Below, in pieces: positions 5,524 through 29,369 of a stretch of 64,000 bases of DNA (positions are counted from its first letter, which is position 1; every line of letters begins with the position of its first letter). The stretch comes from Sulfuriferula nivalis (lineage in GTDB: Bacteria; Pseudomonadota; Gammaproteobacteria; Burkholderiales; Sulfuriferulaceae): contig NZ_AP021881.1 in assembly GCF_009937995.1 (NCBI RefSeq), forward strand, positions 1 through 64,000, read 5' to 3'. The notes beneath the pieces are model-generated. The model made no database searches and was not told where the DNA came from. It saw nothing but the letters and a program-made list of their open reading frames with translations. The position numbers and the translations under genes are program-made.

Positions 5524-5579
5524 TGTAGGATCCCATCAGAGTTTAGATTTTTCCCATTCGTTTAGATTTTGTGGGAATT
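5524..5579 (+). repeat. Left end of the Tn7-like element with TnsB-type repeats
   Basis: The end starts TGTAGGATCCCATC and contains two GTTTAGATTTT repeats at 5541-5551 and 5560-5570, spaced 19 bp apart, as expected of TnsB-binding sites. The same 56 bp occur without a mismatch at 29375-29430. Confidence 0.85.
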
Positions 5580-5979
5580 GAAAGCCTGATGCCGACGGAG
5601 GTTAATTTGACCTTTGTTGGTGACATAACAACGTTGATTCAAGAATATTGCGTGACATTGGTAATTAGCTTTATGAACCAATCCATCGAAGGTTGGCGTT
5701 CGTTGTAATAGCAATGGGCTAGGAACAGAACAGCCAGAGCGAGCGCCATAAAGTGCTGTTATTCGGTATGAATCCAACTAGTAGCTAAAAACGGCTGAAT
5801 CATGGCCGAAACAGTTGGCTATCTTTCATCTTTAAGACACTGGCTGTCGTTGTGTCACACTGATAAACTGTTAAGCCAATCAGAACACTCAAAATGAAGC
5901 ACGGGTTTGTTAAAATCCGTGTAGCGGTGAAGCTGAATTGTCGATAGTGGGATACACCCACACCGTCTGATTCTCATCG
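5580..5979. other. Non-coding left cargo margin
   Basis: About 400 bp lie between the left end and the first cargo gene. No convincing gene is seen. A 71-codon minus-strand frame here has no recognisable protein features. The stretch may hold the promoter of the 5980 operon, but no clear -35/-10 pair was identified. Confidence 0.5.
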
Positions 5980-6225
5980 ATGGCTACGTTGAGGATAGTG
6001 TGGTCGGAAGACAATCGGGCGTTATTTTGCGTCATTTGTGATCCAAAACTAAAGATGCCGACCGAGCTGTCTGGGCGTCAGGTACCTAACCTCTCGCGTG
6101 CTCTTTGTGTGATGGAGAGTTTATGGTTGGTTGAAATCAAGAGTAATGTGCGCGAAATCGAGCCGATTGCACAGTCCACGAATTTTCTGGTGGTGCTGAA
6201 TTTAGCGCAGGGGAAGCAAGAATGA
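5980..6225 (+). CDS. Small winged-helix-type putative DNA-binding protein
   Basis: This is an 81-residue protein. The segment from about residue 30 to 60 (LSGRQVPNLSRALCVMESL) resembles the recognition-helix region of HVO_A0114-like and other MarR-like winged-helix proteins, followed by a wing-like strand. It is shorter than typical members and the N-terminus is weakly conserved by eye, so it may be a truncated regulator. Its stop codon overlaps the start of the DUF3800 gene (ATGA at 6222), suggesting translational coupling and a shared operon. A role as repressor of that operon is inference. Confidence 0.6.
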   Translation: MATLRIVWSEDNRALFCVICDPKLKMPTELSGRQVPNLSRALCVMESLWLVEIKSNVREIEPIAQSTNFLVVLNLAQGKQE

Positions 6226-6920
6226 AATTTGAGGTGTATTGCGATGAAGCTAACCCGGATGTCCTGACGTCTGCGAATCCCCGTGCGCGTTATCTCATGA
6301 TCGGTAGCCTGTGGCTACCGGAGGAACTACGCGATGAGATCAAGGTGCGGATTGGTGCGCTGAGGCAGCGACACCAGGCTTGGGGGGAAATCAAGTGGAG
6401 CAAGGTATCCCCGAATCGCAAGGATTTCTACGTCGAGTTGATTGATCTATTTGTCAGCTACGGTGACAACCTTCGTTTTCGCTGCATTGCTGTAGACCGC
6501 ACCCAGCTTAATCTAGCACTTCATGACAATGATGGCGAGCTTGGGTTCTACAAATTCTATTACCAGCTTTTGCATCACTGGGTGCTCGACTTCAACGCCT
6601 ACCGTATCTTCTGCGATATCAAGAGTAACCGTGATCCCAAGCGCCTGCCTGTGCTCACTCGATGCCTGTCGCGCACCAACCTGACCTCGAACATCGATAG
6701 CATCCAGTCGCTTCCATCTCACGAAGTTGTCCTGATACAGCTTTGTGATTTGCTGCTTGGGGTCGCAAGCAGCCGGATCAATGAAACATTGCGCGACGGA
6801 ACGGCCAAGTCAGCTGTTGTGAGCCGTCTCGAATCTGCTCTGGGTTGTTCGCTCGCACCTACACATAAACGCGAAGAGAAATTCAACATCTTCCAGATTC
6901 GACTGCAGGGAGGTTGGTAA
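6222..6920 (+). CDS. DUF3800 family protein (putative RNase H-fold nuclease)
   Basis: The 232-residue product begins with an acidic motif (YCDEANPD near residue 6), has a central EIKWSKVS segment and FCDIKSNRD, and ends with IQLCDLLLGVASS. These are the spaced acidic and Q-x-x-D elements typical of DUF3800 proteins, which are predicted RNase H-like enzymes common in mobile elements and defence islands. It overlaps the upstream HTH gene by 4 bp and the downstream gene by 1 bp (TAATG), so the three are almost certainly co-translated. The biochemical substrate is unknown. Confidence 0.8.
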   Translation: MKFEVYCDEANPDVLTSANPRARYLMIGSLWLPEELRDEIKVRIGALRQRHQAWGEIKWSKVSPNRKDFYVELIDLFVSYGDNLRFRCIAVDRTQLNLALHDNDGELGFYKFYYQLLHHWVLDFNAYRIFCDIKSNRDPKRLPVLTRCLSRTNLTSNIDSIQSLPSHEVVLIQLCDLLLGVASSRINETLRDGTAKSAVVSRLESALGCSLAPTHKREEKFNIFQIRLQGGW

Positions 6921-7390
6921 TGGCCTTGCCTCCACTGGTTCATTATGCTACCGCCGCTGAATACCGGACGCACTACGAGCAAGTTTACTGTCACGGTACA
7001 ATCCTGACCTTTGAAGGTATTCGAGTCCATTTTTCGTCTAGCAAGTTTGGGCATATGTTTTATGAGAGCACGGCGCGGAATGGAATCAAGGATGCCTTCT
7101 CTCCCGTCCGCGCACAACGCATTGACTGGATCAAGGCGACGCTGGAACACCCTATTGCTGCGCTGTTCGAGGGGTGGGATAAGACTTCGCATCAATACGA
7201 TGCCAGCCGACGGGTGGCGGTTGTGTATGAGGATTTTGTCGTTGTGGTGGCGATGAGTCTGAAGCTCGACGGTTCGCTGAAAGCCAACTTCGTGACTTGT
7301 TACCAGGCAGACAACAGCATCAGCAAGATCAGGAAATCGCCGGTATGGTCCCGGGAGGCTTGCCTTCATCGACTTGGAGGGACGCCTTGA
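6920..7390 (+). CDS. Unknown protein, possibly BECR-fold RNase-like
   Basis: This is a 156-residue protein starting at the ATG that overlaps the DUF3800 stop, with a GGGAGG ribosome-binding sequence just upstream. A frame start at TTG 6914 is less likely. The order of elements (F-SPVRAQRIDWI, then -HPIAALFEGWDK, then a run of beta strands VAVVYEDFVVVVAM ending FVTCYQADNSI) resembles barnase/EndoU/ColicinE5/RelE (BECR)-like domains of phage and mobile elements. That is pattern recognition, not a demonstrated match. Being third in the operon, it could be an effector or toxin. No function is claimed. Confidence 0.65.
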   Translation: MALPPLVHYATAAEYRTHYEQVYCHGTILTFEGIRVHFSSSKFGHMFYESTARNGIKDAFSPVRAQRIDWIKATLEHPIAALFEGWDKTSHQYDASRRVAVVYEDFVVVVAMSLKLDGSLKANFVTCYQADNSISKIRKSPVWSREACLHRLGGTP

Positions 7391-7596: not shown

Positions 7597-9177
7597 ATGC
7601 CAACGCTAAACTGGATCGGCAAGGAAGCTGTCGTCAAACACCATAAGGAAGTGCCATTCCGGCTACTGGAACCAGTACCGGATTTGTGCTGTGGTGCAGC
7701 CGACAGCGGCAACCTCATCGTGCAAGGGGACAACTTGCATGCGCTCAAGGCTCTACTGCCGCGTTACGCCGGCCAGGTGAAGTGCATCTACATTGACCCG
7801 CCGTACAACACTGGCAACGAGGGTTGGGTCTACAACGACAATGTCAGCAGCCCGGAAATCCGTCGCTGGCTGGGCGAGGTAGTCGGCAAGGAAGGCGAGA
7901 CGCTGGATCGGCACGACCGCTGGCTATGCATGATGTATCCGCGCCTAGTCCTATTGCGTCAGTTTCTCACTGAAGATGGTGTCATTCTGATCTCGCTGGA
8001 CGACGTTGAATCTGGGCATTTACGGTTGTTGTTGGACGAGATATTTGGATTCAAAAATCGGATTGCAACGATTGTTTGGAATACACGGAATACCGACAAC
8101 CGCATCAAGTCGCACCTCTCACCAGACCATGAGTACATCTTTGTCTACGGCAAGTCCGACTCTGCGCGGATTGAAGGGCGCATAATTGATCGCTCGGACT
8201 TTAAGAACCCAGATAAAGATCCGAGAGGCCCCTATGTAACTGATCCGCTCAAAGGAAAAGCCACAGCCACCGAGCGTCCAAATCTTCATGAATACAACAT
8301 GGCGCAACCGGAGACAACCAATATTTGGAAACCCGATCCAGCCAAGGGATGGATCACTGATCGGGCGGGCTACGAAAGACTGCTGGCTGAAGACCGTATT
8401 TGGTGGCCATCCAATCCTGCAACTGGTTGGCCTCGCAAGAAGCGATTTCTTTCCGAAACACAGGAGCGGATGCCTGCCTCAAGTTTTTGGTCGGAGTTCA
8501 AGAGTCAGTCGGGTGCACGAGAGCTTGATGAAATTCTCGACGAGCGCGTATTTGCATTTCCGAAGCCACTCTCCGTTATTCAGCGAGTCATTTCTTACTG
8601 TGCTCCACCTGGTAGCCTAGTGTTGGACTCGTTCGCGGGGACTGGAACTACAGCTCACGCAGTTCTGAGGCAAAATGCAGAAGACAGCGGCAATCGTCGA
8701 TTCATATTGGTAGAGATGGACGATGGAATCGCCCGCAAAGTCACCGCCGAGCGTGTCAAGCGCGTTGCCTCCGGCAACGCCAAAGGTAACACTGGCGGAG
8801 GTTTGGGCGGTGGCTTCCAGTTCTGCCGCCTATCTGCCGAGCCGCTGTTTACTGCCGAGGGACAGATTCGATCCGATGTCACCTTCGCCCAACTGTCCGA
8901 GTTTGTCTGGTTTGCGGAGACCGGCACCGGCTATACAGGGCAAGGGGATACGCCACTGCTTGGCGTGTATGAGGGACGCGGCATATATCTGCTCTACAAC
9001 GGCATCCTCAAGGACAAATCCATCGCCGGTGGCAATGTGTTGACCGGGCCGGTGTTCGACGTGCTGCCGAAATTCGCTGGCCCCAAAGTGATCTACGCCG
9101 CCGCCAACCGCATGGGCGGCCGCGCTGCGCGCGAGGGCATCACCTTCAAGCAAACCCCTTACGCACTGGAGGTGTAA
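7597..9177 (+). CDS. Type III restriction-modification methyltransferase (Mod), N6-adenine
   Basis: This is the modification subunit that methylates adenine in an asymmetric site, protecting host DNA. The 526-residue protein has catalytic motif IV DPPYNTG near residue 67 ahead of the AdoMet-binding motif DSFAGTGTTAHAVL near residue 345. That is the beta-class order, with a target-recognition region between the two. The C-terminus (EGITFKQTPYALEV) is typical of Mod proteins that precede a Res gene. The restriction gene begins 3 bp after its stop. Codon use is GC-rich compared with the neighbouring core genes, in keeping with transfer. Confidence 0.9.
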   Translation: MPTLNWIGKEAVVKHHKEVPFRLLEPVPDLCCGAADSGNLIVQGDNLHALKALLPRYAGQVKCIYIDPPYNTGNEGWVYNDNVSSPEIRRWLGEVVGKEGETLDRHDRWLCMMYPRLVLLRQFLTEDGVILISLDDVESGHLRLLLDEIFGFKNRIATIVWNTRNTDNRIKSHLSPDHEYIFVYGKSDSARIEGRIIDRSDFKNPDKDPRGPYVTDPLKGKATATERPNLHEYNMAQPETTNIWKPDPAKGWITDRAGYERLLAEDRIWWPSNPATGWPRKKRFLSETQERMPASSFWSEFKSQSGARELDEILDERVFAFPKPLSVIQRVISYCAPPGSLVLDSFAGTGTTAHAVLRQNAEDSGNRRFILVEMDDGIARKVTAERVKRVASGNAKGNTGGGLGGGFQFCRLSAEPLFTAEGQIRSDVTFAQLSEFVWFAETGTGYTGQGDTPLLGVYEGRGIYLLYNGILKDKSIAGGNVLTGPVFDVLPKFAGPKVIYAAANRMGGRAAREGITFKQTPYALEV

Positions 9178-9180
9178 GCC

Positions 9181-11886
9181 ATGACCACATTCGCGCCAAA
9201 AACCTACCAGTCGCAAGTGCTCGATAGTGTGGAAGCCTACTTCAAGGCCTGCCACGAACTACCATCACCGTCGATTGCCTTCACCGCCACTACGGAGCGC
9301 TTGTGGGGACGTGGCAATACCTATAACCCGCTCTCGGGCTTCCCGTCCGATATGCCGTACTTCTGCCTGCGCGTGCCCACTGGCGGCGGCAAGACCTGGC
9401 TGGCGGCGAAGAGCGTGGCACTGGTCAACACCCACCTGCTGCGTTGCGAGCACAGCGTCATCCTATGGCTGGTGCCAAGCAAGCCGATCCGCGAGCAGAC
9501 GTTGCGTGCCTTGCGCGACCGTCAGCACCCCTACCACACTGCATTGCGTGAAGCCGGCCCGATCACCGTGCTGGATCTGGAAGAAGCCAAGAGCGTGACT
9601 CGCGCCACGCTGGATACCTCGACCACGATCATTGTGGCCACGCGGCAGGCGTTTCAGGTCGAAGAGGAAGAATGCCGCAAGGTGTACCAATCCAGCGGCG
9701 CGCTGATGCACCATTTCGACAACGTGTCGCCAACGCAGCGCGACGAATTGTTGACCGAAGGCGAAGGCGCGGACCGGATTACGCCCTATTCGCTGGCTAA
9801 CGTGCTGCGTCTGCGTCGACCCTTCGTAGTCGTCGACGAGGCGCACAATAACCGCACCGAACTGGCCTTCGACATGCTGGCGCGATTCCGCCCCAGCGGC
9901 GTGATGGAACTGACCGCCACGCCCGATCTTGAGCGCACGCCTAGCAACGTATTGCACAGCGTATCCGCCGCCGAATTGAAGGCGGAAGAAATGATCAAGC
10001 TGCCGGTGGTGCTCGAAACGGAGCCAAACTGGCAACAGTGTCTGGCCGATGCCATCGGCCGTCGTGATGCCTTGCACAAGCTGGCCGACGATGAACGTCG
10101 GGCGGGTGCCGCCTACTTGCGGCCACTAGTGCTGATTCAGTCGGAGCCGCGCCGGGCGGGTGTCGATACGCTGGACTTCGAGCGTGTGAAGAACGAGCTG
10201 ATTACCAACCACGGCATTCCGGCCAGCGAGATAATCGTAGCCACCAGCGAAGAAAAAGGGCTGGAGCAGATCGATGCGGACTACAAGTTGGGCATTGCCG
10301 ACCCGGCCTGCCCGGTGAAATTCGTCATCACTCAAAAGGCGCTGGCCGAAGGCTGGGACTGCCCCTTTGCTTACATCTTGGTCAGCATGGCCTCGCTGCA
10401 TTCGGCCACGGCGGTAGAGCAGTTGCTTGGGCGCGTATTGCGTCAACCGGGCGCGAGTCATCGGCAGGCGCGCGCGCTGAATCAGTCCTATGCCTTCGTC
10501 GTCTCGCGCAATTTTGCTGAAACTGCCAGCGCCTTGCGTGATCGATTGGTGGCTGGGGCGGGTTTCGAACGCCGCGAAGTGAATGAGTTCGTGACTGCCG
10601 CCAAGGCTGAACAATCGCGATTGGATCTGGAGGGTCACGCCGGGCGCGTTGTCGTTCGGCCGGTGGCGATTACCTTGTCCGAAAAGCCCGATCTCAAGAG
10701 CGTACCCAAGCAGATCCGCGACAAGGTAAGTTGGGATGGTAAGCTGAATACGCTGACTATCAGTACCCCGCTGACCGAGGATGAGGCCGAAAGACTCAAG
10801 GCATCGGTCAAGTCAGAAACCGCAGCGGCGGCCATTGTTGAAGCTGCCGAAGTCAGCCGTACCACCGCTATCGAGTTTTTCCAGACGCCGGCCGAACTCG
10901 GCGAACGTTTCCGCATTCCGCAACTCGCGCTACGGATTCAGGGTGAACTGGCTTTGTTCGACGACCCGGAGGAATTGGAGTACCCGTGGGATCTCTCGCG
11001 TTACGATGCCGCGCCAACGGCCGACGACCTCTCCGCACTCGGTGCTGGTTTCAAGGTTTCGGAAGGTGGCGAGATCGATGTGGACGACGTCTCTGGTCGA
11101 GTCATTTCACGCTTCTTGCCCGATCTTCAACGCGACTTGGGGCTGGTGTACCAACCAGAAAACTGGGATGAGATTCGCCTTGCCACCTGGCTTTGTCGCA
11201 ACCTGCCGGAGCAATCCCTTACCCACGCGAGCAAGCAAGCCTTCGTTGCCGCATGGCTGACCGATCTGCTGCGCCGAGATGATGTCACGTTGGCTCGTGC
11301 TAATCTGCAGAAGTTCCTGATTCGCAATCGTCTTGAGGTGCGCATCCGCGACTTACGCAAACAGGCGGTAAGCCAGGCATTCCAGCAAACGCTATTCGGT
11401 GAAGATGCCGCATCCCGTGTCGGGGTGACCGACGAGTACGCCTTCGAGTTTCATGCGCAGGCCTACGCACCCAGCCGCGATTACGATGGCCGCTTTGGTC
11501 ACTTCGATTTCAGGAAGCACTTCTACGGGCGCATGGGCGAATTCGACAGCAAGGAGGAATTCGAGTGCGCTTGCTGGCTGGATATTCAGGCGCAGCAGGG
11601 CAGTATTCAATTCTGGGTGCGCAATCTGGTGCGGCGCGAAGGGAGTTCGTTCTTCCTGCAGAAGGCGGACGGGCGTTTCTACCCGGACTTTCTGTGCCAG
11701 CTTCCCGGAAAAGCGGACAAGCCCGGACCGATTCTCGCCGTCGAATACAAGGGTGCCGACCGCTGGTTATCGGCCGAGGATGACCGATTGATTGGTGGCC
11801 TGTGGGCCAACCTTTCCGAGGGTCGCTGCCGATTTGTGATGGTGAAAGACAGGAGGTGGGACTGGATTGAAGAATATTTGAAATGA
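9181..11886 (+). CDS. Type III restriction endonuclease subunit (Res)
   Basis: Res is the ATP-dependent translocating nuclease partner of Mod. The 901-residue protein has a superfamily 2 helicase core: Walker A PTGGGKTW near residue 66, DEAH box VVVDEAHNN near residue 216, and the later motif QKALAEGWDCPFAYI near 386. A C-terminal PD-(D/E)xK-type nuclease region (YPDF, then AVEYKG) lies around residues 840-865. ATG at 9181 is preceded by GGAGG. The full length and intact motifs suggest an active type III system together with Mod at 7597. Confidence 0.9.
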   Translation: MTTFAPKTYQSQVLDSVEAYFKACHELPSPSIAFTATTERLWGRGNTYNPLSGFPSDMPYFCLRVPTGGGKTWLAAKSVALVNTHLLRCEHSVILWLVPSKPIREQTLRALRDRQHPYHTALREAGPITVLDLEEAKSVTRATLDTSTTIIVATRQAFQVEEEECRKVYQSSGALMHHFDNVSPTQRDELLTEGEGADRITPYSLANVLRLRRPFVVVDEAHNNRTELAFDMLARFRPSGVMELTATPDLERTPSNVLHSVSAAELKAEEMIKLPVVLETEPNWQQCLADAIGRRDALHKLADDERRAGAAYLRPLVLIQSEPRRAGVDTLDFERVKNELITNHGIPASEIIVATSEEKGLEQIDADYKLGIADPACPVKFVITQKALAEGWDCPFAYILVSMASLHSATAVEQLLGRVLRQPGASHRQARALNQSYAFVVSRNFAETASALRDRLVAGAGFERREVNEFVTAAKAEQSRLDLEGHAGRVVVRPVAITLSEKPDLKSVPKQIRDKVSWDGKLNTLTISTPLTEDEAERLKASVKSETAAAAIVEAAEVSRTTAIEFFQTPAELGERFRIPQLALRIQGELALFDDPEELEYPWDLSRYDAAPTADDLSALGAGFKVSEGGEIDVDDVSGRVISRFLPDLQRDLGLVYQPENWDEIRLATWLCRNLPEQSLTHASKQAFVAAWLTDLLRRDDVTLARANLQKFLIRNRLEVRIRDLRKQAVSQAFQQTLFGEDAASRVGVTDEYAFEFHAQAYAPSRDYDGRFGHFDFRKHFYGRMGEFDSKEEFECACWLDIQAQQGSIQFWVRNLVRREGSSFFLQKADGRFYPDFLCQLPGKADKPGPILAVEYKGADRWLSAEDDRLIGGLWANLSEGRCRFVMVKDRRWDWIEEYLK

Positions 11887-12265
11887 TTTCCTTGCCTACG
11901 GTCGCTGACCTATTCATTACGGCCGTTAGTGGTGCAGAAGCTCAATGACCGTTCAGGTTGATATCCGGAAGTTATCGGCATTGGTAAAAAGCTTCCGCTT
12001 TGTGCCAATATCAGCCCGTCAAGGTTGAAACTGGCTGCCAGAAAGTCGTCGTTCGGCTCTGAATCAACAGAGCTTAGGTGTATACGGCCAGGTAGCGCTA
12101 ATCCAATCTATTCTTTGTGTTAGCATCATGCAAGATGAATAATTGGCGCAAATATGGTTAAGTTGTTACTGCTCCTCACAGATTGCGTTGGAAATATCCT
12201 TCATGCCTGGTGTACTCAACTACCCTCTACTGTAAGTGTTATGTTCTCTTGGAGCCCACCTGATT
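11887..12265. other. Intergenic stretch between res and the SIR2 gene
   Basis: About 380 bp without a convincing gene. The sequence is more AT-rich than res and probably holds the promoter of the SIR2 gene. The in-frame start at 12236 adds ten residues unlike the family, so ATG 12266 is preferred and this stretch is treated as leader. Confidence 0.5.
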
Positions 12266-15200
12266 ATGCAGTTCGTTAAACACGGCCCAGATATTCCTGA
12301 AGCGCTATTGCAAGCCCACGAGGAGGGGCGTGTAGTGTTCTTCTGTGGTGCGGGTATTTCGTATCCAGCAGGGCTCCCTGGATTTCAGGGTTTGGTGGAT
12401 AAAATCTATAGCATCGTCGGCACTGTGCGTAACGACATTGAGAATGAAGCATATTCGCGAGGTCAATACGACGCCACGCTGGATTTGCTGGAACACCGTA
12501 TTCCTGGTCAACGCGTGACTGTGCGCATGGCTCTGGCAACGGTACTAAAACCTAAGCTGCGGCTCAAAGGTGCTACCGAGACTCATGCCGCACTGCTGCA
12601 ATTGGCGCGAAGTCGCGACGGTGCTGTGCGTCTGGTGACCACCAACTTCGATCGCATCTTCCAGCACCTAGTGGAGCGAACTAAGTCAGCTATTCCTGCT
12701 TACCCCGCGCCCTTGCTTCCTATCCCCAAAAACAGCCGTTGGGATGGTGTGGTGTATCTTCACGGTTTACTTCCTAAAACCCCTGACGCGAATAATTTAC
12801 ATCGCTTGGTGTTGACCAGCGGCGACTTTGGTCTAGCTTACCTCACCGAACGATGGGCTGCACGCTTCGTCAGCGAGCTATTTCGAAACTATGTTGTCTG
12901 TTTTGTCGGTTACAGCATCAACGACCCCGTGATGCGCTATATGATGGATGCACTCGCGGCAGACCGAATGTTGGGCGAAATCACACCGCAGGCCTATGCT
13001 TTGGGGGATTGTCAGGTGGGGTGCGAGGCAGAAAAGACTATCGAATGGGAGGCCAAGGGGGTTACTCCGATTCTTTATGAAGTGCCGACTGGCACCCATG
13101 ATCACTCTGCTCTACATCAAACGCTAAAGGCTTGGGCAGAAACCTACCGTGATGGAGTGCAGGGCAAGGAGCGTATCGTGGTCGATTATGCGATGACGCG
13201 ACCATTGGCCAGCACCAAGCAAGATGATTACGTTGGCAGAATGCTCTGGGCTTTATCACACGATTCTGGTTTGCCGGCCAAGCTTTTTGCTGAGTTTGAC
13301 CCAGTGCCATCATTAGACTGGCTGGAGTCGCTAAGCGAGGATCGCTATCGACAAGTTGATTTGCCACGCTTTGGCGTGGCACCCTTGTCGAAGCAAGATG
13401 ACAAACTGTCTTTCAGCCTGACCCGCCGCCCCGCGCCCTACTCTCTCGCACCATGGATGATGCTTACGTTCGGCGGAACTAATAGCAGTGGCTGTGACGA
13501 TGTGATGTTTCAACTCGCTCGGTGGCTGACCCGTCACCTGAACGACCCAGCGCTGGTGCTTTGGCTGACCAAACGCGGGGGACAATTACATGATCGCTTA
13601 ATGTGGTTGATCGAAGGCGAGTTAGACAAATTCACAAAACTGGAGCGTGAGGGAAATACCACCGAGCTTGATCGCATTCGCGCCAACGCACCGAATGCCA
13701 TTCCACAGCCGTTGATGCGCACCGTTTGGCGCTTATTCCTTTCAGGTCGAGTTAAGTCGCCATGGCGTGACCTTGACCTATATCGCTGGAGGGATCACCT
13801 CTCCAACGAAGGGTTCACGACGACGGTACGTTTAGAATTGCGCGATTTGCTCACGCCCAAGGTATTATTAAAGCAACCTTTCCGCTGGGGCGATGAAAGC
13901 GCGGATGCATCCACTCCAAAACAGTTGAAAGAATTGGTTAATTGGGATCTGGTACTAGCTGCAGACCATGTCCACTCCGCATTAAATGACTTGGCAAGGT
14001 CCGAAACGTGGCGAGCTGCCTTACCTACGCTTTTGGACGATTTTCAACAGCTACTTCGCGACGCGCTAGATCTGATGCGCGAGCTGGGTGAGGCAGACGA
14101 TCAGCATGATCGTGCTCATTGGGATTTGCCCTCAATTAGCACGCATTGGCAAAATCGAGGCTTTCATGATTGGGTTGCGCTGATTGAGATGCTGCGCGAT
14201 GCTTGGGATGTCACATACCAAGTAAACCCGGCGCGGGCTGCACGTATCGCACATGACTGGTTTGCACAGCCATATCCTACCTATAAGCGTCTGGCGCTTT
14301 TTGCTGCAACGTATACTGGCGTAACTCCCATCGGTGAGTGGGTGGACTGGCTGTTGATTGATAACGCTTGGTGGTTATGGTCAGTGGAGTCACAGCGCGA
14401 AACGATGCGCCTTTTGGTGCTGCAAGGCTCTAGCCTGCCCGATGCGGCGCGTACTCGGATCGAGACAGGTATTTTGTCAGGTCCGCCGCGCGAAATGTTC
14501 CGTGATGATATTGATCCTGAACAATGGCGTGATCTAGTTGATCACGCCATCTGGTTACGTTTGGCCAAGCTTGTTTTCGGGGGAGTCACACTCGGTGACA
14601 ACGCTGGTGCAAGATTAGCTGAATTGACTGCCGCTCATCCTGAATGGCATGTCGCATTGAATGAAAGTGATGAATTTTCGCATTGGATGAGTGGAACCGG
14701 TGATCCAGACTATCAGGATCGGCGCGTGATCGATATCGCACCGCGCACTAGACGTGAATTGGTTATATGGCTACAACGTCGGCCAGTCAAAGGCCTATTT
14801 TACGAGAATGATTGGAGTGATGTATGTCGGTCGAAATTTTCAACTGCAGCTTGTGCATTGTATGCACTTGCGTGTGTGAATCTATGGCCTGAGGAGCGCT
14901 GGCGAGAAGCCCTGCAAGCATGGAGCGATGAAAAACTGATTCGGAGGTCTTGGCGTTACGTAGCTCCAGTACTAAAGTACATGCCCGATAACGTGCTACT
15001 CGCTACTGCCCATAGCTTCACATGGTGGTTGGATACAGCCTCAAAAGTTGCAGACGGTCACCAAGACATTTTCCTCGATCTGTGTCGACGCTTTATTGCA
15101 ATAGAGCATCAGGGTGGAGTTTCGGAGGAGCGTCCTGTTAGTCAGGCTATCAATCACCCGGTAGGTCATGTTACGCAAGCGCTACTGCATCACTGGTTTC

Positions 15201-15559
15201 GCCGTCTGCCCAATGATGATCAAGGTTTGCCAGACGACTTGAAGCCCATATTTACAGCGCTTTGTAATACCCAAAATCAACAATACCGTCATGCGCGTGT
15301 TTTGTTGGCAACTCACGTGATCGCGTTGTTCCGTGTAGATCGCGAATGGGCTAAGACACATCTTCTACCGTTGTTCAATTGGCAGATATCTGTGAATGAG
15401 GCACGAGCTGCCTGGGAAGGATTCCTCTGGTCACCTCGTTTGTTCCGGCCATTACTCGCTGCCTTTAAGGCTGACTTCCTTGAAACGGCTTGCCACTACA
15501 GTGATCTGGGTGAACATGCTCGACAGTACGCTGCTATTCTTGCTCATGCAGCACGGTAA
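12266..15559 (+). pseudogene. SIR2-domain large defence-type protein, 5' part, disrupted by IS
   Basis: The first 1097 codons of a very large gene encode an N-terminal SIR2-like NADase domain: CGAGISYPAGLPG near residue 27, TTNFDRIF near 127, YLHG near 164, VGYSINDPVM near 208. A long helical C-terminal region of no recognised motif follows, resembling SIR2-DUF4020 type proteins. Such SIR2 proteins are known or predicted to deplete NAD+ during phage infection. The frame is cut by an IS3-family element: the last two codons (R and stop) come from the IS end. The remaining ~170 codons lie beyond the IS at 16752-17264. The truncated product retains the catalytic domain but probably not its sensing or oligomerisation end. 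Confidence 0.85.
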
Positions 15560-15624
15560 TCCCCCCAGCAAATAAGTGCATTTAAAAGTAGAATTTTCTT
15601 AATTAGGATTTGAGGATTTTTTAC

Positions 15625-15891
15625 ATGAAGACTACCCGATTTAGTGACAACCAGATTATGCAGATATTGAAGCTGGCGGAGGCAGGCACGCCAGTGCCTA
15701 CACTATGCCGAGAGCACGGCATGAGTTCAGCGACATTTTACAAATGGCGCGCCAAATTTGGCGGCATGGATGCCTCCATGATGGCCAGGCTCAAAGAGCT
15801 GGAAGACGAGAACCGTCGGCTTAAAAAGATGTATGCTGAAGAACGCCTCAAAGCCGAAATCGTTTCAGAGGCGCTTGCAAAAAAGTGGTGA
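15625..15891 (+). CDS. IS3-family transposase OrfA
   Basis: This is an 88-residue HTH protein: helix-turn-helix in the first 50 residues ([20 protein letters not shown]), followed by a leucine-zipper-like helix ([15 protein letters not shown]) that mediates OrfA/OrfAB assembly. ATG 15625 is preferred over the frame start at 15610. The 3' end contains AAAAAAG at 15879-15885, the usual slippery heptamer for -1 frameshifting into OrfB. Confidence 0.9.
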
Positions 15892-16712
15892 AGCCATCTC
15901 TGCGCCGCGAGATGGCTGTGTTGGTAGTGCAAACTAGGCAAATCAGCATCAGTACTGCCTGCGCTGCCTTTAATATCAGCGAAACCTGCTATCGCTATCA
16001 GGCTAAGCTGTCGTCAGAGAATGCCCTCATCGCCGACTGGCTGATACGTTTGACCACCAACCAACGCAACTGGGGGTTTGGCTTGTGTTATTTTTACCTG
16101 CGTAATACCAAACAGTTTCGTTGGAACCACAAGCGGGTTTACAGAATATATCGCGAGCTGGAATTGAACCTACGCATCAAACCCAGACGTCGTCTGGTAC
16201 GGGAGAAACCAGAGGCGCTTGCCGTACCAACACAAATCAACGAAGTCTGGTCAATGGACTTCATGCACGACCAGTTAGCGGATGGCCGCTGTATCAGGCT
16301 ATTCAACGTCATTGATGACTTTAATCGTGAAGGTTTGTGTATTGATGTGGATTTCTCGCTGCCGTCAGAACGTGTGATTCGGTCACTGGAACAAATCATC
16401 GAATGGCGTGGCGTACCCAAGGTGATTCGATGTGACAACGGCCCTGAGTACATCAGCAATATGACTAAGGAATGGGCTGAACAGCGGGGTATCAAACTTG
16501 ACTTCATTCAGCCAGGCAACCCCCAGCAGAATGCTTATATCGAGCGCTATAACCGCACAGTGCGCTATGACTGGTTGGCGCATTACTTGTTCGATACCGT
16601 CGAGGAAGTGCAAAACTTTGCGACAGCTTGGTTATGGACTTACAATAACGAACGACCAAACACGGCGATTGGCGGTATCCCGCCTAAACACAAACTCGCT
16701 ATGGCCGCTTAA
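15885..16712 (+). CDS. IS3-family transposase OrfB (DDE catalytic part)
   Basis: This is the integrase-like catalytic protein, about 275 residues. The DDE residues sit in [17 protein letters not shown] and [16 protein letters not shown]. The frame overlaps orfA in -1 and begins at a GTG within the slippery region, so the active OrfAB transposase is most likely made by programmed frameshifting. No internal stop is seen, so the IS may still be mobile. Confidence 0.92.
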
Positions 16713-16751
16713 CCTCTACTTTTAACTGCGGTTATTAATGGGGGGATTACC

Positions 16752-17264
16752 CCGGCTGATACATTTACTGCTGCTGAACTGTATGAGGCTACCAGTGTTT
16801 TGCCGCAGGAAGGTTTGCAAGAGTCAGCACAGGCTCTTGTTTATGCACTGGAAGGCGCGGGTGAACAGAGAGAACAGTATTGGAACAACCGCATTCGACC
16901 ATACTGGCAAACTATCTGGCCAAAATCTCGTCCATTGGCTTCAAAAGCTATCGCCGAGCTACTTGCGCGCCTGGCCATAGCTGCGCGAGGCGAGTTCCCT
17001 GCTGCACTGGGCACGGTACGTGACTGGCTGCAACCACTTGAACATCCGCACTATGTCGTTCATCTTCTCCACGAATCGGGACTATGCAGTCGGTTCCCGC
17101 AAGATGTTCTAAAATTGCTGGATTCAATTATTGTTGACCAGCCTTGGGCTCCGCAGGAGCTACGTGATTGTCTAAGAGCACTCGTGGCAGCTTGGGTGGA
17201 AGGCCAGCGGGATATTCGTTATCTACGTCTTATCGAGTACGCGCGGCGACACGGACAAGAATAG
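16752..17264 (+). pseudogene. SIR2-domain protein, 3' remnant after the IS
   Basis: The open frame from the IS right end (PADTFTAAELYEATSVLPQEG...) continues for about 170 codons to a stop at 17262-17264. It has the same helical character and codon use as the end of the upstream SIR2 fragment and is read as its C-terminus. It is in a different frame from the 5' part because of the IS. An internal TTG at 16800 could in principle start a short protein, but no ribosome-binding site is evident. Confidence 0.75.
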
Positions 17265-17597: not shown

Positions 17598-17616
17598 GTA
17601 ACCATACGGAATAGCA

Positions 17617-17775: not shown

Positions 17776-17890
17776 CGATTATCGCTTCTATTTTATTTGA
17801 TACGGCGGCTTGAAATTGATGAAGGGGCAAAGAAATCTCTAGCAGCACAACAAATCTTAATTGTTGAGACACTAAACCTGGCAAATTAGC

Positions 17891-19011: not shown

Positions 19012-19266
19012 TCAGACGAATTCCTTTCCAACAGGTTGCATAGATCCCCATGCTTGCATATCGGCAGGTTCAGGTGCGTTTAAGTCGCATTGCGCCATTA
19101 ACTCAGCAAGCTTGTATTTGGTTTTAGTCACTGGTATTAATACAATGTTCCCGTCAATCTGTTCAGCATTCACAACGCTACCAATAGACAGGTTAAGGGA
19201 TTTCAACATGGTTGCTGGAAAAATAATGCCAGCACTATTGCCTAGTTTTCTAATAAAAAGTTTCAT
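19012..19266 (-). CDS. Orphan AbrB/MazE-family antitoxin
   Basis: This 84-residue protein has a swapped-hairpin AbrB domain in the first 45 residues (RKLGNSAGIIFPATMLKSL, then SVVNAEQIDGNIVLIPV). It has a short acidic tail of the kind that would bind a MazF-like or PIN-type toxin. No toxin gene is present downstream (the region before 19012 on this strand has no open frame), so it appears orphaned. It may persist as protection against a related toxin or as a regulator. A broken duplicate lies inverted at 17641-17775. Confidence 0.8.
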   Translation of the reverse strand: MKLFIRKLGNSAGIIFPATMLKSLNLSIGSVVNAEQIDGNIVLIPVTKTKYKLAELMAQCDLNAPEPADMQAWGSMQPVGKEFV

Positions 19267-19533
19267 CCCTTAATCCTTATAGCTCAACAATATATGCATT
19301 AACGTTAAGTTTTTTGACTTCCAATATGGGCAACCCCAAAACCAGTTGAATATTTGAGCCCATAAGCCAAGCGCACGGTCAAAGCTAATATGAACACATC
19401 AAATGAACCCCCACCTAATAATCCCAATTTACCGTACCTATCCTTTATTAATATGCAATTCGTGCCTACAGCATGGCTGAAGCGCAATTAGCCGCTGCCA
19501 TTGACTGCTGCATCAGCCTGAGCACCTAGTTCT
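19267..19533. other. Intergenic region beside orphan antitoxin
   Basis: This contains the antitoxin leader and AT-rich sequence. A 60-codon minus-strand frame (19305-19487) has no ribosome-binding site or recognisable motif and is not accepted as a gene. Confidence 0.4.
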
Positions 19534-23824: not shown

Positions 23825-24463
23825 ATGCTAGCCAGGAAAGTTGTAACAAGGAGCGGGCGCAAGATTCGCGGGTATTTTCCCAGCCGAAAAATGGGTCGTA
23901 TGATCCAGTGGGAGTCGCTTCTAGAACGTGATGCAATACTGCTGCTGGAGTTTTCATCTGGCATTAAAAGCTTCCGGGAGCAGCCAGAAAGGGTGGTCTA
24001 TTATGCTGGTCAAAAACAGCATGAGTATTATCCGGATTTTGAAATTACCCAAATTGGTGATTCGGTTATCCACCTTGAAGTAAAACCGTTAGCACAAATT
24101 AAAACTCGCAAGATTTCAGAAAAGTTCGCTCACATTGCGAATCACTACGATCACCTAGGGCGGCGCTTCTTGGTTTTGACCGATGATCGCATTCGGCGCC
24201 AACCGTTACTTAGCAACCTAAATCGGCTTCAATATTTTAACCGACCTGGTTACCAAGTTGAGAGTTTGAGCGATAAATATAAATTGCAGTTTGGTAAGGA
24301 TATCCCTATCCCTCTTGCCGCGGTGATTGATGAATTGGGCGAGCCATGTGTGATGACGCTGCTTGCATACGGGATACTCAGCTGTAACTTGGAGCAAAAA
24401 CTTGCCAGTTCGTCTCTGATTTCATGGGTCAAGGAGGATGGCGATGCGTCGATTCTCCTTTAA
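23825..24463 (+). CDS. tnsA: TnsA-like transposon endonuclease subunit
   Basis: TnsA cuts the 5' ends of the transposon so that Tn7-type elements move by cut-and-paste. The 212-residue protein has the expected restriction-like catalytic pattern: WESLLERDAI (Glu), YYPDF (Asp) and HLEVKP (Glu-x-Lys), within the first 100 residues. A C-terminal helical region follows. It starts the four-gene operon and overlaps tnsB by 26 bp. Size and motif spacing fit TnsA rather than the TnsA-lacking Tn5053-type systems. Confidence 0.9.
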   Translation: MLARKVVTRSGRKIRGYFPSRKMGRMIQWESLLERDAILLLEFSSGIKSFREQPERVVYYAGQKQHEYYPDFEITQIGDSVIHLEVKPLAQIKTRKISEKFAHIANHYDHLGRRFLVLTDDRIRRQPLLSNLNRLQYFNRPGYQVESLSDKYKLQFGKDIPIPLAAVIDELGEPCVMTLLAYGILSCNLEQKLASSSLISWVKEDGDASILL

Positions 24464-26411
24464 GAAGGGCCTAGTACTCTTTGACGCGCAGCGGCGCTGG
24501 GAGTTGGTTAGACGCCTAGTCACAGGAAAGCTGCAGTTACAGGATGAGTCAGGCGAGTTATTGAATCTTGATGAGGCTGAGCTCCTTAACCGCTGGCTGG
24601 AGGGGCTTTGGGTTATTGATCAGGATTCTTTGGGCATTGGGAATGACCTGCTTTACACAACGACGCCAAGGGATTTGGCTACTTTTCCGGAGCGCTGGCA
24701 GCAAATTGCGAGGAAGCGGCAAGCATACATCCAGGCGGTTAATCCGGAGCAAAATAAATATAACCCAGCGCGCTGGAGTGAGCTAATTAAAGCCCACGCA
24801 CTAGTGGAACAAGATGACAATCCACCCTGCCCTTCATCCGTTTACTCGTGGTGGAAACGATTTCGGAACACCCGCTCTTTGGCCGATTTAGTTCCGTTTA
24901 CGCGGTCAAACAAACCTCGACATGCGGATAGTCGGTTTGCAGTATTCGAACAGGCGGTATCTGAATTGTATCTGTCGCAGCAGCGCTTGCCAAAACTGGA
25001 TGTGGTCAAACGCGTCCATGAAAAAGTTAGGCAACTGAACCAAGGCAAGCCCGAGACAGAAATAATTAAGGCGCCAACGAAATCAACAATTTATCGTTGG
25101 CTGAGTGATTTACAGCAGGATGTTGTCGATCGGGCAAGGTTAGGTGCTGAGGCCGCAAAAGTGAAGTACCGTATGGTGCTGGGATCATTGAATGTCACTT
25201 CTGTTCTTGAGCGAATCGAGATTGACCATACGCCCGTGGATTTAATCATAATCGACAAACTCACAGGGCTAAACTTGGGAAGGCCTTGGCTAACCATAGC
25301 AAAGGATCGCCACTGTCGCATAGTTTGGGGATACTACCTTTCATTTAATCCACCGTCGACACATTCAGTCTTGCAATGTCTTAAAAATGGAATGTTACCG
25401 AAAACAGCGCTGCTCGCAAAATATCCGGACATAGTAGGCGAATGGCCAGCCTGCGGAATTCCAGATCTGATTGCGGTCGACAACGGAATGGACCTGCATT
25501 CGGCTGGACTCGAAAAAACCTGTCAGGAACTGGGTATCCAGATTTTATATTGTCCGGCGAAAATACCTTGGTTTAAGGGAGCCGTGGAGCGACACTTTAA
25601 AACGATGGCTAATGACTTGATACATCGTATGCCCGGCACAACGTTTTCGAATGTTAAGGATAGAGGGGAGTATCCGGCAGAATCATTGGCTTGTATTGAT
25701 TTCGATTTATTACATGAAGTCGTAGTCCAATGGATAGTCGACGTATTTAATGTATCACCTCATCGGGGAATCGGTACAACACCATTGCTAAAGTGGAAGG
25801 AAGGCGCATCAAAACGCCCCATTGAGTTGCCTGTCTTGCCGCAGCAATTGGACGTGATTACTGGAATACCAGCTGAGCGAGTACTCTTCCATTATGGCCT
25901 TGAGCTTGAAGGACTGCATTACAACAGCCGTCGCCTCCAAGAAATCCGACGTCGATCCGGTGACAACATACGCCTCCAGCTGAAGTTCTACGAGAACACT
26001 GTCGCGCACATTCAAGTGTTTGACCCGTACGCCAAAGAATACATCGAGGTACCTACGATTCAGGAAGCCTACAGCCAGGGCATATCACGCTCTGTGCACA
26101 GACTAGTTCGTGAATACGCTCGTAAAGAATTTGGTGAGAGTTTTTCTAGCGAACAGTTGCAACTGGCGAAGGAAAACATTCAACAAAAGATTGATCGTGC
26201 CGCTCGGGACAAAAAAATGGCTAATCGAAAGCAGGCGCAGCGCTTGAATATGACGGATAGCGACCCGCTGACTCCGTCTAAGGACATCATCAACCAACCT
26301 AGGAAAGGCAGCAAATCACCATTGAACGAGGTGCCACCCGAGCTCCCCGATGGGCTTAATGACGAATTGCCAAAATTTAAACCGTTGGAGAATCCAGATG
26401 AAACCAATTGA
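24438..26411 (+). CDS. tnsB: TnsB-like DDE transposase
   Basis: This is the integrase-superfamily transposase that binds the end repeats and joins 3' ends to the target. The 657-residue protein has N-terminal helix-turn-helix regions, a catalytic core with Asp in IEIDHTPVDLI, Asp in AVDNGMDLHS and Glu in AVERHFKTMAND, and a C-terminal beta-barrel and TnsC-interacting tail. Translation overlaps tnsA upstream and tnsC downstream. It should recognise the GTTTAGAT-type repeats at both ends. Confidence 0.93.
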   Translation: MAMRRFSFKKGLVLFDAQRRWELVRRLVTGKLQLQDESGELLNLDEAELLNRWLEGLWVIDQDSLGIGNDLLYTTTPRDLATFPERWQQIARKRQAYIQAVNPEQNKYNPARWSELIKAHALVEQDDNPPCPSSVYSWWKRFRNTRSLADLVPFTRSNKPRHADSRFAVFEQAVSELYLSQQRLPKLDVVKRVHEKVRQLNQGKPETEIIKAPTKSTIYRWLSDLQQDVVDRARLGAEAAKVKYRMVLGSLNVTSVLERIEIDHTPVDLIIIDKLTGLNLGRPWLTIAKDRHCRIVWGYYLSFNPPSTHSVLQCLKNGMLPKTALLAKYPDIVGEWPACGIPDLIAVDNGMDLHSAGLEKTCQELGIQILYCPAKIPWFKGAVERHFKTMANDLIHRMPGTTFSNVKDRGEYPAESLACIDFDLLHEVVVQWIVDVFNVSPHRGIGTTPLLKWKEGASKRPIELPVLPQQLDVITGIPAERVLFHYGLELEGLHYNSRRLQEIRRRSGDNIRLQLKFYENTVAHIQVFDPYAKEYIEVPTIQEAYSQGISRSVHRLVREYARKEFGESFSSEQLQLAKENIQQKIDRAARDKKMANRKQAQRLNMTDSDPLTPSKDIINQPRKGSKSPLNEVPPELPDGLNDELPKFKPLENPDETN

Positions 26412-27441
26412 TATTATTTCGACCTATCGTGGTGCTGAACAGAGTGGTACAGATGCATTGGGGTTTTCGCTTGCGGGCATTACATTTCAGCATGCTCGCT
26501 TCAAGTCGATTGTGCTGCAAATTGCTGAAAGACATCACCATTCCAGTATTCACGGCGTGAGTGATGGCTTACTTATCACGGGTTTTTCTGGTGTAGGGAA
26601 GAGTAAGATCCTGCGGCACTATCAGTCACTTTTTCCTCGGCGAGTGGAGCGCGGCGTGACCATTATTCCAGCGCTGTTTGCTGAAACGCAAAGCTCCCCA
26701 ACCGTTAAAAGCTTGGCTCAAACAATCCTGGGGGCAATTGGGGATCCAACCGCACATCGGGGAACTGCTGCCGAGAAGACAGAGCGCATCTATAATTATT
26801 TTGCGCGGTGCGGCATTGAAATTTTGTTATTAGACGAGTTCCACCACTTTTACTACACCGCAACTGTTCAGCAGTATCGCGACATTACGGATTGGTTAAA
26901 AGGAATCATGAATAATCTGCGTTGCACTTTGGTATTGTGCGGTCTACCAGAAGCTAAAAATGTCGTCAGGAGTAATAGCCAGTTATGGCGACGGTTTTCA
27001 TCGCAGATTGAGTTGTCACCATTTGCGATGGATGACGCAGAAGATTGGTTGGAGTTCCGTGGGCTTTTGCAAGCTTTTGGCGCACAAATTCCCGTACCCT
27101 TTGATGTGCCATTACACGAATCAAATATGGCGCGGCGAGTTTATATTGCGTCTGGTGGCCGGCTCGACTACGTAAAAAAGCTGTTGGAAGGCGCGATTTC
27201 TGTTGCTGTCCGTACTGATTTGCCTTCCATAGATTTGGCCGTATTGGCTGCGGGATTCAGGGAGCAAATTTGGTCTGATGTCCCAACCAGGCTTAATCCT
27301 TTTCACCCAGAATCACCGCTCAGGCCACTTAATCGAAGTGGAGAACCGTTCGAGCCAGATTCACATGCACAGATGATTGGTTCGCCGATCGCTCGGCGCT
27401 TAGGCGGTGTGCTGAGAAAAGCCAAGAGGGATAACGTATGA
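26398..27441 (+). CDS. tnsC: TnsC-like AAA+ transposition regulator
   Basis: This ATPase filaments on target DNA and links the target selector to TnsAB. The 347-residue protein has Walker A GFSGVGKSK near residue 60 and Walker B ILLLDEFHHF near 143. It is the TniB-like short type rather than the longer Tn7 TnsC. ATG 26398 (MKPIDIIST) overlaps the tnsB end and is preferred over 26350, which would add residues read in another frame of tnsB. Its stop overlaps the tniQ start (ATGA). Confidence 0.92.
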   Translation: MKPIDIISTYRGAEQSGTDALGFSLAGITFQHARFKSIVLQIAERHHHSSIHGVSDGLLITGFSGVGKSKILRHYQSLFPRRVERGVTIIPALFAETQSSPTVKSLAQTILGAIGDPTAHRGTAAEKTERIYNYFARCGIEILLLDEFHHFYYTATVQQYRDITDWLKGIMNNLRCTLVLCGLPEAKNVVRSNSQLWRRFSSQIELSPFAMDDAEDWLEFRGLLQAFGAQIPVPFDVPLHESNMARRVYIASGGRLDYVKKLLEGAISVAVRTDLPSIDLAVLAAGFREQIWSDVPTRLNPFHPESPLRPLNRSGEPFEPDSHAQMIGSPIARRLGGVLRKAKRDNV

Positions 27442-29336
27442 GTCCATTACTGATACGGCCTGAACCAGAAAACAATGAAGGACCGCGAGGATATTTACTC
27501 AGATTGGCTGAAGCTAACTACTTGCAGATGATCGATCTGGAAAAGTTGGGTGTTCTTTTTACTCTCGATTCGTTGCAATCTAATGGGCTGATGCCCAATT
27601 CAGCGCTTGATCCAGTTTTATATGATTACCTGACGCGATTGACTGATTTATGGAACCAAAAACCCCGAATTTGGAATTCACAGGCTGCTCGATTCTGTCC
27701 ACACTGCCTGAAAAACGAGCCGGTTTGGCAAGTTGGGTGGGAGTTGTATTTCTACGATGCCTGTCCGGAGCATGGTGTCTGGTTAATTGATCGATGTAGT
27801 TCCTGTGGACAGAATATCAAGTGGGGTCGCGGAGCCCTTCTACGTTGCCAATGTGGTGCAGATTTGCGACAGGAAGTGCCAGTTGCTAGTAGTTCATCAG
27901 GTACGGCTTTGGTGAAAGTGCTGCAGAATATTCTGCATGACCGCCCAGATGAGGGAGCATTAATTCCTCTCCAAAAGCTGGATATTACTCAAATGCAACA
28001 GCTGACTCGATATATTGGTGCAGGTTTGCGCCCTGGGATGGGAATGCGGGCTCTTAAAATTCGGCATGCTGGAACGATGGCCATATCATGGACAATTACC
28101 TCGCATGCTGCGGAAGTATTTGCCAACTGGCCAGCAGCATTTCATGAATTGCTTAATCAATTTGAGAGGCAAGAATCTAGTCGCTCCTTAAAGTTCGTTA
28201 TAGGGCAGGCATATCGATATCTTTATACGGTTTTGTCTGCACCACAGTTTGACCCTGTGCGGTTTGCATTTGAGGAGTGGTTACTCAGTTCATGGAAAGG
28301 TGGTGTCGCGCGACGTAACCGCCGGTTAGTTGAAACAATTATGCATCGTGCAGAATGGATTCCGGCAAAACTGGCCTGTAGCGAACTTGGGATTTCCATG
28401 AAGCGTATTCAGTTTTTAGTTCAGTCTGGGATGCTGGAAGGGCAAACGACTGTGTATCAATCGGGTCGGCGTTTTCTGACGGTTAAGAAAACTGGGCTGG
28501 ATCAAGTTGCTTCATTCCTAAAAACGGGTATCAATCTTAAAACCGCTGCAAAACTGCTAGGATTTTCTAAGAAACGAATACGGGGAATCTTGCTACTGCT
28601 GTTCCCTAATGCATCTCGATCTGGCGGAGTATCAACGCCATGGTTTGTGCCGCTAGCTGATATCGACGCGGTGCTATCAATCCGAGAGAATTTACCTGTT
28701 GTTGCTCTTCCGGATGAGGGTTGCGTGTCTATTAATCATTTGCTTAGGTACTTTATCTGGACAGAGTCTGAAATGGTTGCACTTATTAAAGAGACCCAGC
28801 AGGGAAATATCAAAGCGGTTGGTGTGCAAGCAGATTTAGTTGGTGTTAATGGGGTGTTATACCGGGAAGCAGAAATCAGAGTATGGCGTGACCGGCATAA
28901 GCAAGGTCAGGGTTCTTGGCTGACCTTGGCCCAGGTGGCTGAAATTTTGATGATCCATAAAGAAGCTGCTAGTGACTTTATTCATCTTGGTTTTCTCCAG
29001 TCAGTGATGTTGCCGAGAATTTTGCCAGGTGGAGGGCATCGGATTTCTAGGGTTGATCTTGAGCATTTTCAGAAAGAGTACGTGACTAGCACAGAGATTG
29101 CCAGACGAGTGGAACAGCCTGCACGTAAAATCAGAGTTGCATTGGCCGGAAATGGTATTGCGCCAATTTCTGGTTCAAAAGTGGACTTTGGAAGACAGAC
29201 GCTATATATTAGAAGCGCTGTTGAGGCGTTTCTAGACTCGTCTGATTTTCTGGATGACAATGTAGGGAAATCTAATTTGATGGGAAATTTGCAGGCTTTG
29301 AGTCCCAACGATGATTCGAAACCCCTTGATTTTTAA
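27438..29336 (+). CDS. tniQ: TnsD/TniQ-family target selector
   Basis: The 632-residue protein has the TniQ N-terminal domain with zinc-binding cysteines (FCPHCL, CPEHG, CSSCG, CQCG between about residues 87 and 145). A long C-terminus contains several helix-turn-helix-like segments (TAAKLLGFSKKRIRG, LAQVAEILMIHKEA). TnsD-type proteins of this size bind a fixed chromosomal site, unlike the short TniQ of CRISPR-associated Tn7 elements. The insertion 3 bp after gyrB suggests its target lies in the gyrB 3' end. Its last codons contain a TnsB-like repeat, and the right transposon end begins just after the stop. Confidence 0.9.
   Translation: MSPLLIRPEPENNEGPRGYLLRLAEANYLQMIDLEKLGVLFTLDSLQSNGLMPNSALDPVLYDYLTRLTDLWNQKPRIWNSQAARFCPHCLKNEPVWQVGWELYFYDACPEHGVWLIDRCSSCGQNIKWGRGALLRCQCGADLRQEVPVASSSSGTALVKVLQNILHDRPDEGALIPLQKLDITQMQQLTRYIGAGLRPGMGMRALKIRHAGTMAISWTITSHAAEVFANWPAAFHELLNQFERQESSRSLKFVIGQAYRYLYTVLSAPQFDPVRFAFEEWLLSSWKGGVARRNRRLVETIMHRAEWIPAKLACSELGISMKRIQFLVQSGMLEGQTTVYQSGRRFLTVKKTGLDQVASFLKTGINLKTAAKLLGFSKKRIRGILLLLFPNASRSGGVSTPWFVPLADIDAVLSIRENLPVVALPDEGCVSINHLLRYFIWTESEMVALIKETQQGNIKAVGVQADLVGVNGVLYREAEIRVWRDRHKQGQGSWLTLAQVAEILMIHKEAASDFIHLGFLQSVMLPRILPGGGHRISRVDLEHFQKEYVTSTEIARRVEQPARKIRVALAGNGIAPISGSKVDFGRQTLYIRSAVEAFLDSSDFLDDNVGKSNLMGNLQALSPNDDSKPLDF
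29261..29287 (-). repeat. Internal TnsB-like repeat within the tniQ 3' end
   Basis: Read on the minus strand this is TTTCCCATCAAATTAGAT followed by TTCCC, resembling the CCCATCAGAGTTTAGATTT repeat of the left end. It lies about 80 bp inside the right end, as expected of a second right-end TnsB site, but falls in coding sequence. Confidence 0.5.
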
Positions 29337-29345
29337 CAACGCAAT

Positions 29346-29369
29346 TTCAATCTAAAATGGGATCCTACA
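29346..29369 (-). repeat. Right end of the Tn7-like element
   Basis: The complementary strand reads TGTAGGATCCCATTTTAGAT. The first 13 bases are identical to the left end, followed by a TTTAGAT motif. The end is only about 10 bp from the tniQ stop codon, so the right end is very compact. Confidence 0.85.

Follow-up and report, generated by a model that had tools for sequence, protein, structure and literature searches.

A Tn7-like transposon behind gyrB in Sulfuriferula nivalis and the gyrB 3′ end as a probable attachment site of its family

Why does a transposon of about 24 kb lie directly behind gyrB, and was that position chosen by the element itself? The question is raised by the first 64,000 nucleotides of Sulfuriferula nivalis contig NZ_AP021881.1 (this whole stretch is hereafter the window), which begins with dnaA, dnaN and gyrB in that order (gene names by reading) and continues with a Tn7-like element at 5524-29369 whose tips read TGTAGGATCCC...GGGATCCTACA. 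An earlier note on this DNA had proposed that the element carries a complete TnsABC-TniQ set and no Cas genes, that its left end lies 3 bp after the gyrB stop codon, that its 632-residue TniQ selects the site, and that a gyrB-linked site may be new. From comparative sequence analysis we conclude, with a probability of roughly 0.87, that this is a cargo-bearing Tn7-like transposon, that the attachment site of its family is the gyrB 3′ end, and that a TnsD-type TniQ reads the conserved 3′ coding end of that gene. Across the genomes compared, members of the family have a near-constant position, a constant strand, exact 5-bp duplications in half of the cases, and stacked ends.

The attachment gene occupies 3124-5520 on the forward strand; it is an open reading frame (ORF) whose 3′ end was compared across 18 hosts and whose conserved 3′ coding end would be the recognition sequence. 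Its TAA stop (5518-5520) is followed by AAT and then, from 5524, by TGTAGGATCCC, such that the element begins 3 nt past the stop, as the earlier note had it. The gyrB-proximal end (5524-5579, forward strand) has TTTAGAT twice in close succession, at +19 and +38 counted from the tip, while the distal tip ATGGGATCCTACA lies on the reverse strand at 29357-29369 and ends at 29369, 33 nt beyond the tniQ stop. The element thus has inverted TGT...ACA tips, which agree with one another over 11 bp or more, and repeated inner sites that are putative TnsB sites. Four genes form a single row on the gyrB strand, with all frames open and motifs present: the TnsA endonuclease (23825-24463; PF08722, 9.1e-7; PseTnsAB chain, 1.9e-8), the TnsB DDE transposase (24438-26411; Tn6677 TnsB chain, 7.4e-57; Tn7 TnsB chain, 5.6e-17), the TnsC AAA+ regulator (26350-27441; PF05621 TniB, 1.1e-29; Tn6677 TnsC chain, 2.8e-27; Walker-type motifs) and the 632-residue TniQ/TnsD target selector (27438-29336; PF06527, 6.2e-10; HTH_17, 5.6e-12). 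TnsB had zero Pfam matches at 0.001, and carries D263, D348 and E384, which we take to be catalytic-type motifs. Pfam and solved-chain matches together thus bear out the complete set for all four genes.

To place the element among its relatives, genomes were coded G### (the window's own genome being G000) and 18 genomes of the window's family, namely its own and those of 17 congeners, were searched with the window TniQ. The window genome gave one TniQ match at E <= 0.001, and no full-length relative was found in the 17 congeners, several of which are incomplete, with weak matches in two. Among 369 genomes of the class, 10 had any match at 0.001, and the one strong match besides the window was G124, a member of another family of the same order (30% identity over residues 78-606), whose element likewise starts 3 nt past gyrB, with the tns genes at the end away from it. 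A profile built from the window and G124 TniQs was then run over 399 genomes of the order and over named genomes, and gyrB was subsequently located in 28 genomes. Any match at 0.001 was obtained in 50 of the 399; at E <= 1e-49 there were 15 places, 11 of them immediately behind gyrB, counting the two query rows, and four elsewhere, which becomes 9 of 13 at gyrB once the query rows are removed. Between 1e-49 and 1e-20, five further places were found, two at gyrB (G411 C9 and G759) and three elsewhere (G530, G602 and G671).

In the named genomes, which belong to Rhodocyclaceae (two metagenome-assembled genomes), Vogesella aquatica, Pseudogulbenkiania subflava and Jeongeupia naejangsanensis, all five loci were at gyrB, two on the gyrB contig itself and three on split contigs (G770, G771 and G773), where a tip at gyrB, together with the same 5 bp duplicated beside the distal tip, links the two parts. 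The gyrB elements therefore number 18: the window's, 12 in its order and five in the named genomes. All of the ten nearest TniQ relatives, at 28-39% identity, are at gyrB, three of them by split contigs. A search of TniQ relatives with a listing of the gene at the left end, as the earlier note had suggested, thus supports targeting by the long TniQ, and the scatter of close relatives over other sites that would have spoken against it was not seen. With a cutoff of E <= 1e-30, a TniQ profile of 14 rows picked out two of the 369 class genomes, namely G124 and the window's own; among 398 genomes of the phylum it matched seven, of which five are at gyrB and the other two are G602 and G811.

The position of these elements is nearly fixed. 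The first TGTAG past the gyrB stop lies at 3 nt in 12 of the 18 elements, at 9 nt in two, and at 2, 5, 7 and 11 nt in one each; in 11 gyrB loci of the same survey that lack an element, it was found within 12 nt in none, being absent or at least 149 nt off. A chance position was rejected on this comparison of 18 elements at one place with 0 of 11 control loci. Where element and gyrB are on one contig, as in 15 cases, the element is always downstream and on the gyrB strand, with tniQ 4.5-26 kb away. With one element 3 nt after gyrB and 17 relatives within about 11 nt of the same spot, this looks like a family that lands at the gyrB end. Exact 5-bp duplications flank 9 of the 18, and every 5-mer is different: GATGT in G653, TAAGC in G629, AACTA in G769, AAAAA in G770, AAACA in G771, AGGTT in G773, GACGT in G772, GAGTC in G748 and TGCTT in G503.

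The congeners and the distal flanks add a record of repeated use of the site. In 12 congeners examined at gyrB, TGTAG follows after 3 nt in two (G003 and G006) and after 5 nt in G011, and is far or absent in nine; the sequence in G003 is clearly an end, those in G006 and G011 are degenerate, and G008 and G010 appear end-like by eye. Directly behind the distal tip of the window element, a structure at 29375-29940 (assigned to neither strand) carries at 29375-29430 a 56-bp end identical to the proximal end, 23.85 kb from it, and an inverted end at 29916-29940. An end homologous to this structure stands 3 nt past the gyrB stop in G003 (83% over 266 nt), and we read the structure as the probable remains of an earlier insertion. 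When eight distal flanks were compared with the gyrB-downstream sequence of other genomes, proximal-end-like sequence was found behind the distal tip in five (the window, G770, G773, G714 and, weakly and for the inner part only, G653) and not in G629, G769 or G771. In G772, a second TniQ fragment lies downstream of the first, with a matching distal tip 7.9 kb behind the first TniQ. The stacked ends and this second fragment agree with insertion of newer elements ahead of older ones.

One other account of the window copy is that it is a recombined and perhaps now immobile composite of two elements that used the same site, which is compatible with the family reading and which we regard as possible, though doubtful. 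The identical 56-bp ends 23.85 kb apart, the lack of an exact duplication and an IS3-family insertion in the cargo are in its favour, whereas the four open tns frames with their motifs and the agreement of the two tips speak against it. Small slips (TG or AA) were considered as a possible cause of the imperfect duplication.

The phylogeny of the selector connects the site with the protein. In a tree of 35 long TniQs, of which 18 were labelled gyrB (10 of the rows labelled other have no assigned neighbour gene), the gyrB label requires 4 changes, where shuffled labels need 12.1 on average, and 0 of 500 shuffles were as low, a result to which near-copies contribute. Fourteen gyrB rows, the window's included, form one group with moderate support (91/69, unstarred); the placement of single rows is unsure because several branches are long. 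Rows lying between gyrB rows follow lysS, msrB and fabI, and two distant rows (G013 and G175) follow nrdB, these neighbours having been confirmed by NCBIfam or, for lysS in G658, by motif. A general liking of TniQ for gyrB was rejected, as other long TniQs follow lysS, msrB, fabI and nrdB, and G602 and G811 are not at gyrB. In related long-TniQ elements, tnsA was seen shortly after fabI, lysS, msrB and nrdB, and fabI and lysS are followed within 30 nt by a visible TGTAG tip, which is not obvious after msrB.

How might the site be read? Reading of the DNA by TniQ, its footprint, the recruitment steps and present activity are matters that we infer, largely by analogy with Tn7, in which TnsD covers the final 36 bp of glmS and the element inserts about 25 bp farther on (PMC2918618). 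If that spacing is applied to gyrB, the sequence read falls on approximately the V-E-P-R-R-x-F-I-E-x-N-A codons, some 25-65 bp upstream of where the element inserts; the first and second positions of these codons are mostly the same in the 18 hosts. Acting as a TnsD, the long TniQ would bind this coding sequence through its C-terminal array, its N-terminal TniQ region would recruit TnsC, and TnsC would then bring TnsA and TnsB with the paired ends. In the commonest insertion, the five duplicated bases would be the last two of the stop codon and three more, with one particular end placed beside gyrB, and since insertion is at the stop-codon end, gyrB would stay intact. Later elements could land in front of older ones.

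The architecture of the window TniQ is consistent with such a division of labour. It comprises a TniQ region with conserved cysteines (seven are invariant in the 14-row alignment), a helical middle, and about five predicted winged-helix-like units at approximately 305-601. Against solved structures, the 14-row profile matched TniQs best (1.1e-24) and two TnsDs weakly (0.0096 and 0.14). In the structural model, the C-terminal half (about 305-601; block predicted local distance difference test, pLDDT, 47-90) forms about five strand-helix-helix-hairpin-helix units, and local Foldseek searches returned BldC and Xis winged helices with a probability of about 1.00, a target template modelling (TM) score of about 0.7-0.8 over some 54 residues, and E >= 0.15. 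Pfam found one winged-helix-type unit (HTH_17 at 494-547), and sequence alignment of the five units gave little. With the whole model, Foldseek gave two matches at E <= 0.001, both to UFL1-DDRGK1 chimera chains at a target TM of 0.16, and these were not taken as meaningful.

Several findings weigh against the view that TniQ of this family reads the gyrB end. The use of gyrB spreads beyond one clade, with G611, G537, G411b and G759 elsewhere on the tree, and four of the 15 strong places in the order are at other genes (G411 C1 and G739 at msrB; G658 and G739 at lysS). A second copy in G771 (Pseudogulbenkiania; 1.0e-76) is at fabI, and with the 14-row profile G602 (same order, 4.7e-44) and G811 (outside the order, 1.1e-58) matched away from gyrB. 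No clean empty site was found among the eight distal flanks, which gave stacked ends and the G003 remnant instead. Exact duplications were not found in 9 of the 18 elements, mostly those without a convincing distal tip: none in G124, G408, G611, G411, G497, G537 or G759, one off by one in G714, and none in the window, where the five bases outside the tips (AAAAT on the left and AATTG on the right) are not a duplication. In G411, G497, G537 and G759, the tips were placed solely by the TGTAG at gyrB. The predicted TniQ model is weak (pLDDT 57.7; predicted TM score 0.33) and poor in the middle, and the best 32-mer match between gyrB and the element (23) is slightly above that of five shuffles (20-21).

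A further alternative is that another factor, such as a guide RNA or a second selector, chooses the site while the long TniQ merely bridges to TnsC. G124 does encode a second protein with a TniQ match, of 344 aa, beside its long TniQ, and short TniQs can partner other selectors (PMC10293859, available part); as against this, the window genome has its one TniQ match, on the tree, use of the gyrB site goes with the long TniQ, and we consider this alternative improbable. Its guide-RNA form was rejected on three counts. In agreement with the earlier note, cas genes were absent from the cargo proteins scanned (nine with PADLOC, some also with Pfam or NCBIfam; a subset of the ORFs); no Rfam match at the gathering threshold was found in 5000-31000; and no exact match longer than 11 nt was found between the gyrB 3′ end and the element. 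That gyrB adjacency was inherited from one ancestral insertion, passed on vertically without repeated targeting, is very unlikely, for although all 13 gyrB hosts of established kinship (the window included) fall in one order, it is opposed by the stacked ends, the differing 5-bp duplications, the visibly different cargo ORFs and the lack of full-length relatives in the congeners as sampled.

A broader proposal is offered tentatively, as somewhat less probable than not: targeting would be modular and protein-only, with about five winged-helix units re-aimed among the 3′ ends of gyrB, lysS, msrB, fabI and perhaps nrdB while insertion is kept shortly past the stop. For this group in its order, gyrB would be the main site, at which several lineages arrived independently, and the correspondence between units and targets might be decoded to predict or redirect the insertion of large cargo. 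Related selectors with different target genes form a natural series, by which the manner in which TnsD reads coding DNA becomes testable by comparison. The locus would moreover place gyrB among the few chromosomal safe sites of Tn7-like elements and provide a guide-free insertion site beside an essential gene.

Among known systems, the direction of the tns operon relative to the target gene is the same in Tn7 as in the window. The earlier note had described the layout as opposite to Tn7: the operon does lie at the far end and read outward, but its direction does not differ, and what differs is the cargo, which in the window lies between gyrB and the tns operon. As in Tn7, TnsABC is combined with a long selector of the TniQ type, insertion lies just beyond an essential gene, and members of the family have 5-bp duplications (for Tn7, in part PMC2918618); Tn7, however, inserts about 20 nt after the stop of glmS, against about 3 nt after that of gyrB here. 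The TnsB (7.4e-57) and TnsC (2.8e-27) of the window are closest to chains of the I-F3 CRISPR-associated transposon Tn6677, from which the element differs in its long selector and in that no Cas gene was found. Within the proteins scanned and the repeats listed for the window, neither cas genes nor a CRISPR array was present, which sets it apart from CRISPR-associated transposons, and its place after gyrB, rather than at glmS, parE or comM, separates it from Tn7 sensu stricto, the Tn7017 type and Tn6022.

gyrB and parE are paralogous. The closest published parallel is Tn7017, an I-F3-type element with a reported parE-targeting TniQ, whose selector is thus likewise directed at the gene of a type II topoisomerase subunit, and I-F3 chains are also the closest to the window's TnsB and TnsC; by its description in the available part of the paper, it is set apart by its parE target, whereas here the target is gyrB and no Cas was found (PMC11406308). 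Tn6022 is likewise Tn7-like with a single chromosomal site, but, according to the available text, it inserts into comM and uses a short TniQ with TnsF, whereas the window element has a long TniQ and leaves its target gene intact (PMC10293859). The suggestion that a gyrB site may be new agrees with searches of open papers, with parE already published: gyrB was not identified as a Tn7-like attachment site in the open literature, a search mostly outside subscription papers, preprints and supplements, where a listing is possible. It is absent from the available main texts of PMC10293859, PMC8649781 and PMC11406308, and in the available parts of other papers it figures as a phylogeny or quantitative PCR marker (PMC12452197, PMC9345347) or a network node (PMC9727169).

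Both ends were known in eight elements, of which six have T[TC]TAGAT at +19 and +38 in the proximal end; the distal ends of the same eight have it once near the tip in four and not at all in four, with possible deeper sites by eye. This recalls the right and left ends of Tn7, where sites are dense next to the target and sparse away from it. On that view, the target-proximal end would be of the usual type, and the operon is what would sit at the other end. Layout varies within the family, since in G611 tnsA lies about 0.56 kb behind gyrB instead of at the far end. By an ad hoc test, 12 of the 18 elements have a terminator-like hairpin within 220 nt of the gyrB stop, compared with a Markov mean of 0.2 (at most 2), 0 of 15 interior windows, and 3 of the 11 element-free gyrB loci; no such hairpin was found in the window's element. 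On the reverse strand, hairpins were found in 11 of the 18, and many are accordingly two-way. By such hairpins the elements may re-establish termination after gyrB, perhaps in place of the gene's own terminator.

Other elements also occur near this site. In G530 and G671, another repeated sequence (TGTGTCGGGTGACATAGAAAGTGAAAAC-like) starts at or near gyrB, which suggests another element group at the same site; visual inspection of 14 and 10 kb of sequence, respectively, revealed no tns genes. Plasmid relatives of the window TniQ were found in 6 of 72,556 records (20.7-27.1% identity), and p716811-VIM of Pseudomonas putida, which typing places among the conjugative plasmids, has a tnsABC-tniQ set, with 26.9% identity between its TniQ and that of the window.

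The cargo genes recognised, all on the forward strand, include the two genes of PDC-M04 (A and B; 6222-7390; PADLOC, 2.2e-74 and 1.3e-65), a candidate defence system, followed by the methyltransferase and restriction subunit of a type III restriction-modification system (7597-11886; PADLOC, 4.1e-187 and 1.4e-119). The gene of a Dsr1 anti-phage sirtuin (12236-15559; NCBIfam Dsr1, 1785.8 bits; residues 11-1106 against 1-1096 of 1263) has its 3′ end cut by an IS3-family insertion, whose transposase gene lies at 15885-16712 (NCBIfam, 4.2e-63). Stacked elements with such defence genes would make gyrB-downstream regions a place to seek defence islands. In the Dsr1 region (12236-17264), the coding frame seems by eye to pick up again near 16754, after the IS3-family interruption. 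Farther on, inverted repeats at 17616-17781 and 19125-19291 have arms of 72 and 98 nt that are 94% and 87% complementary.

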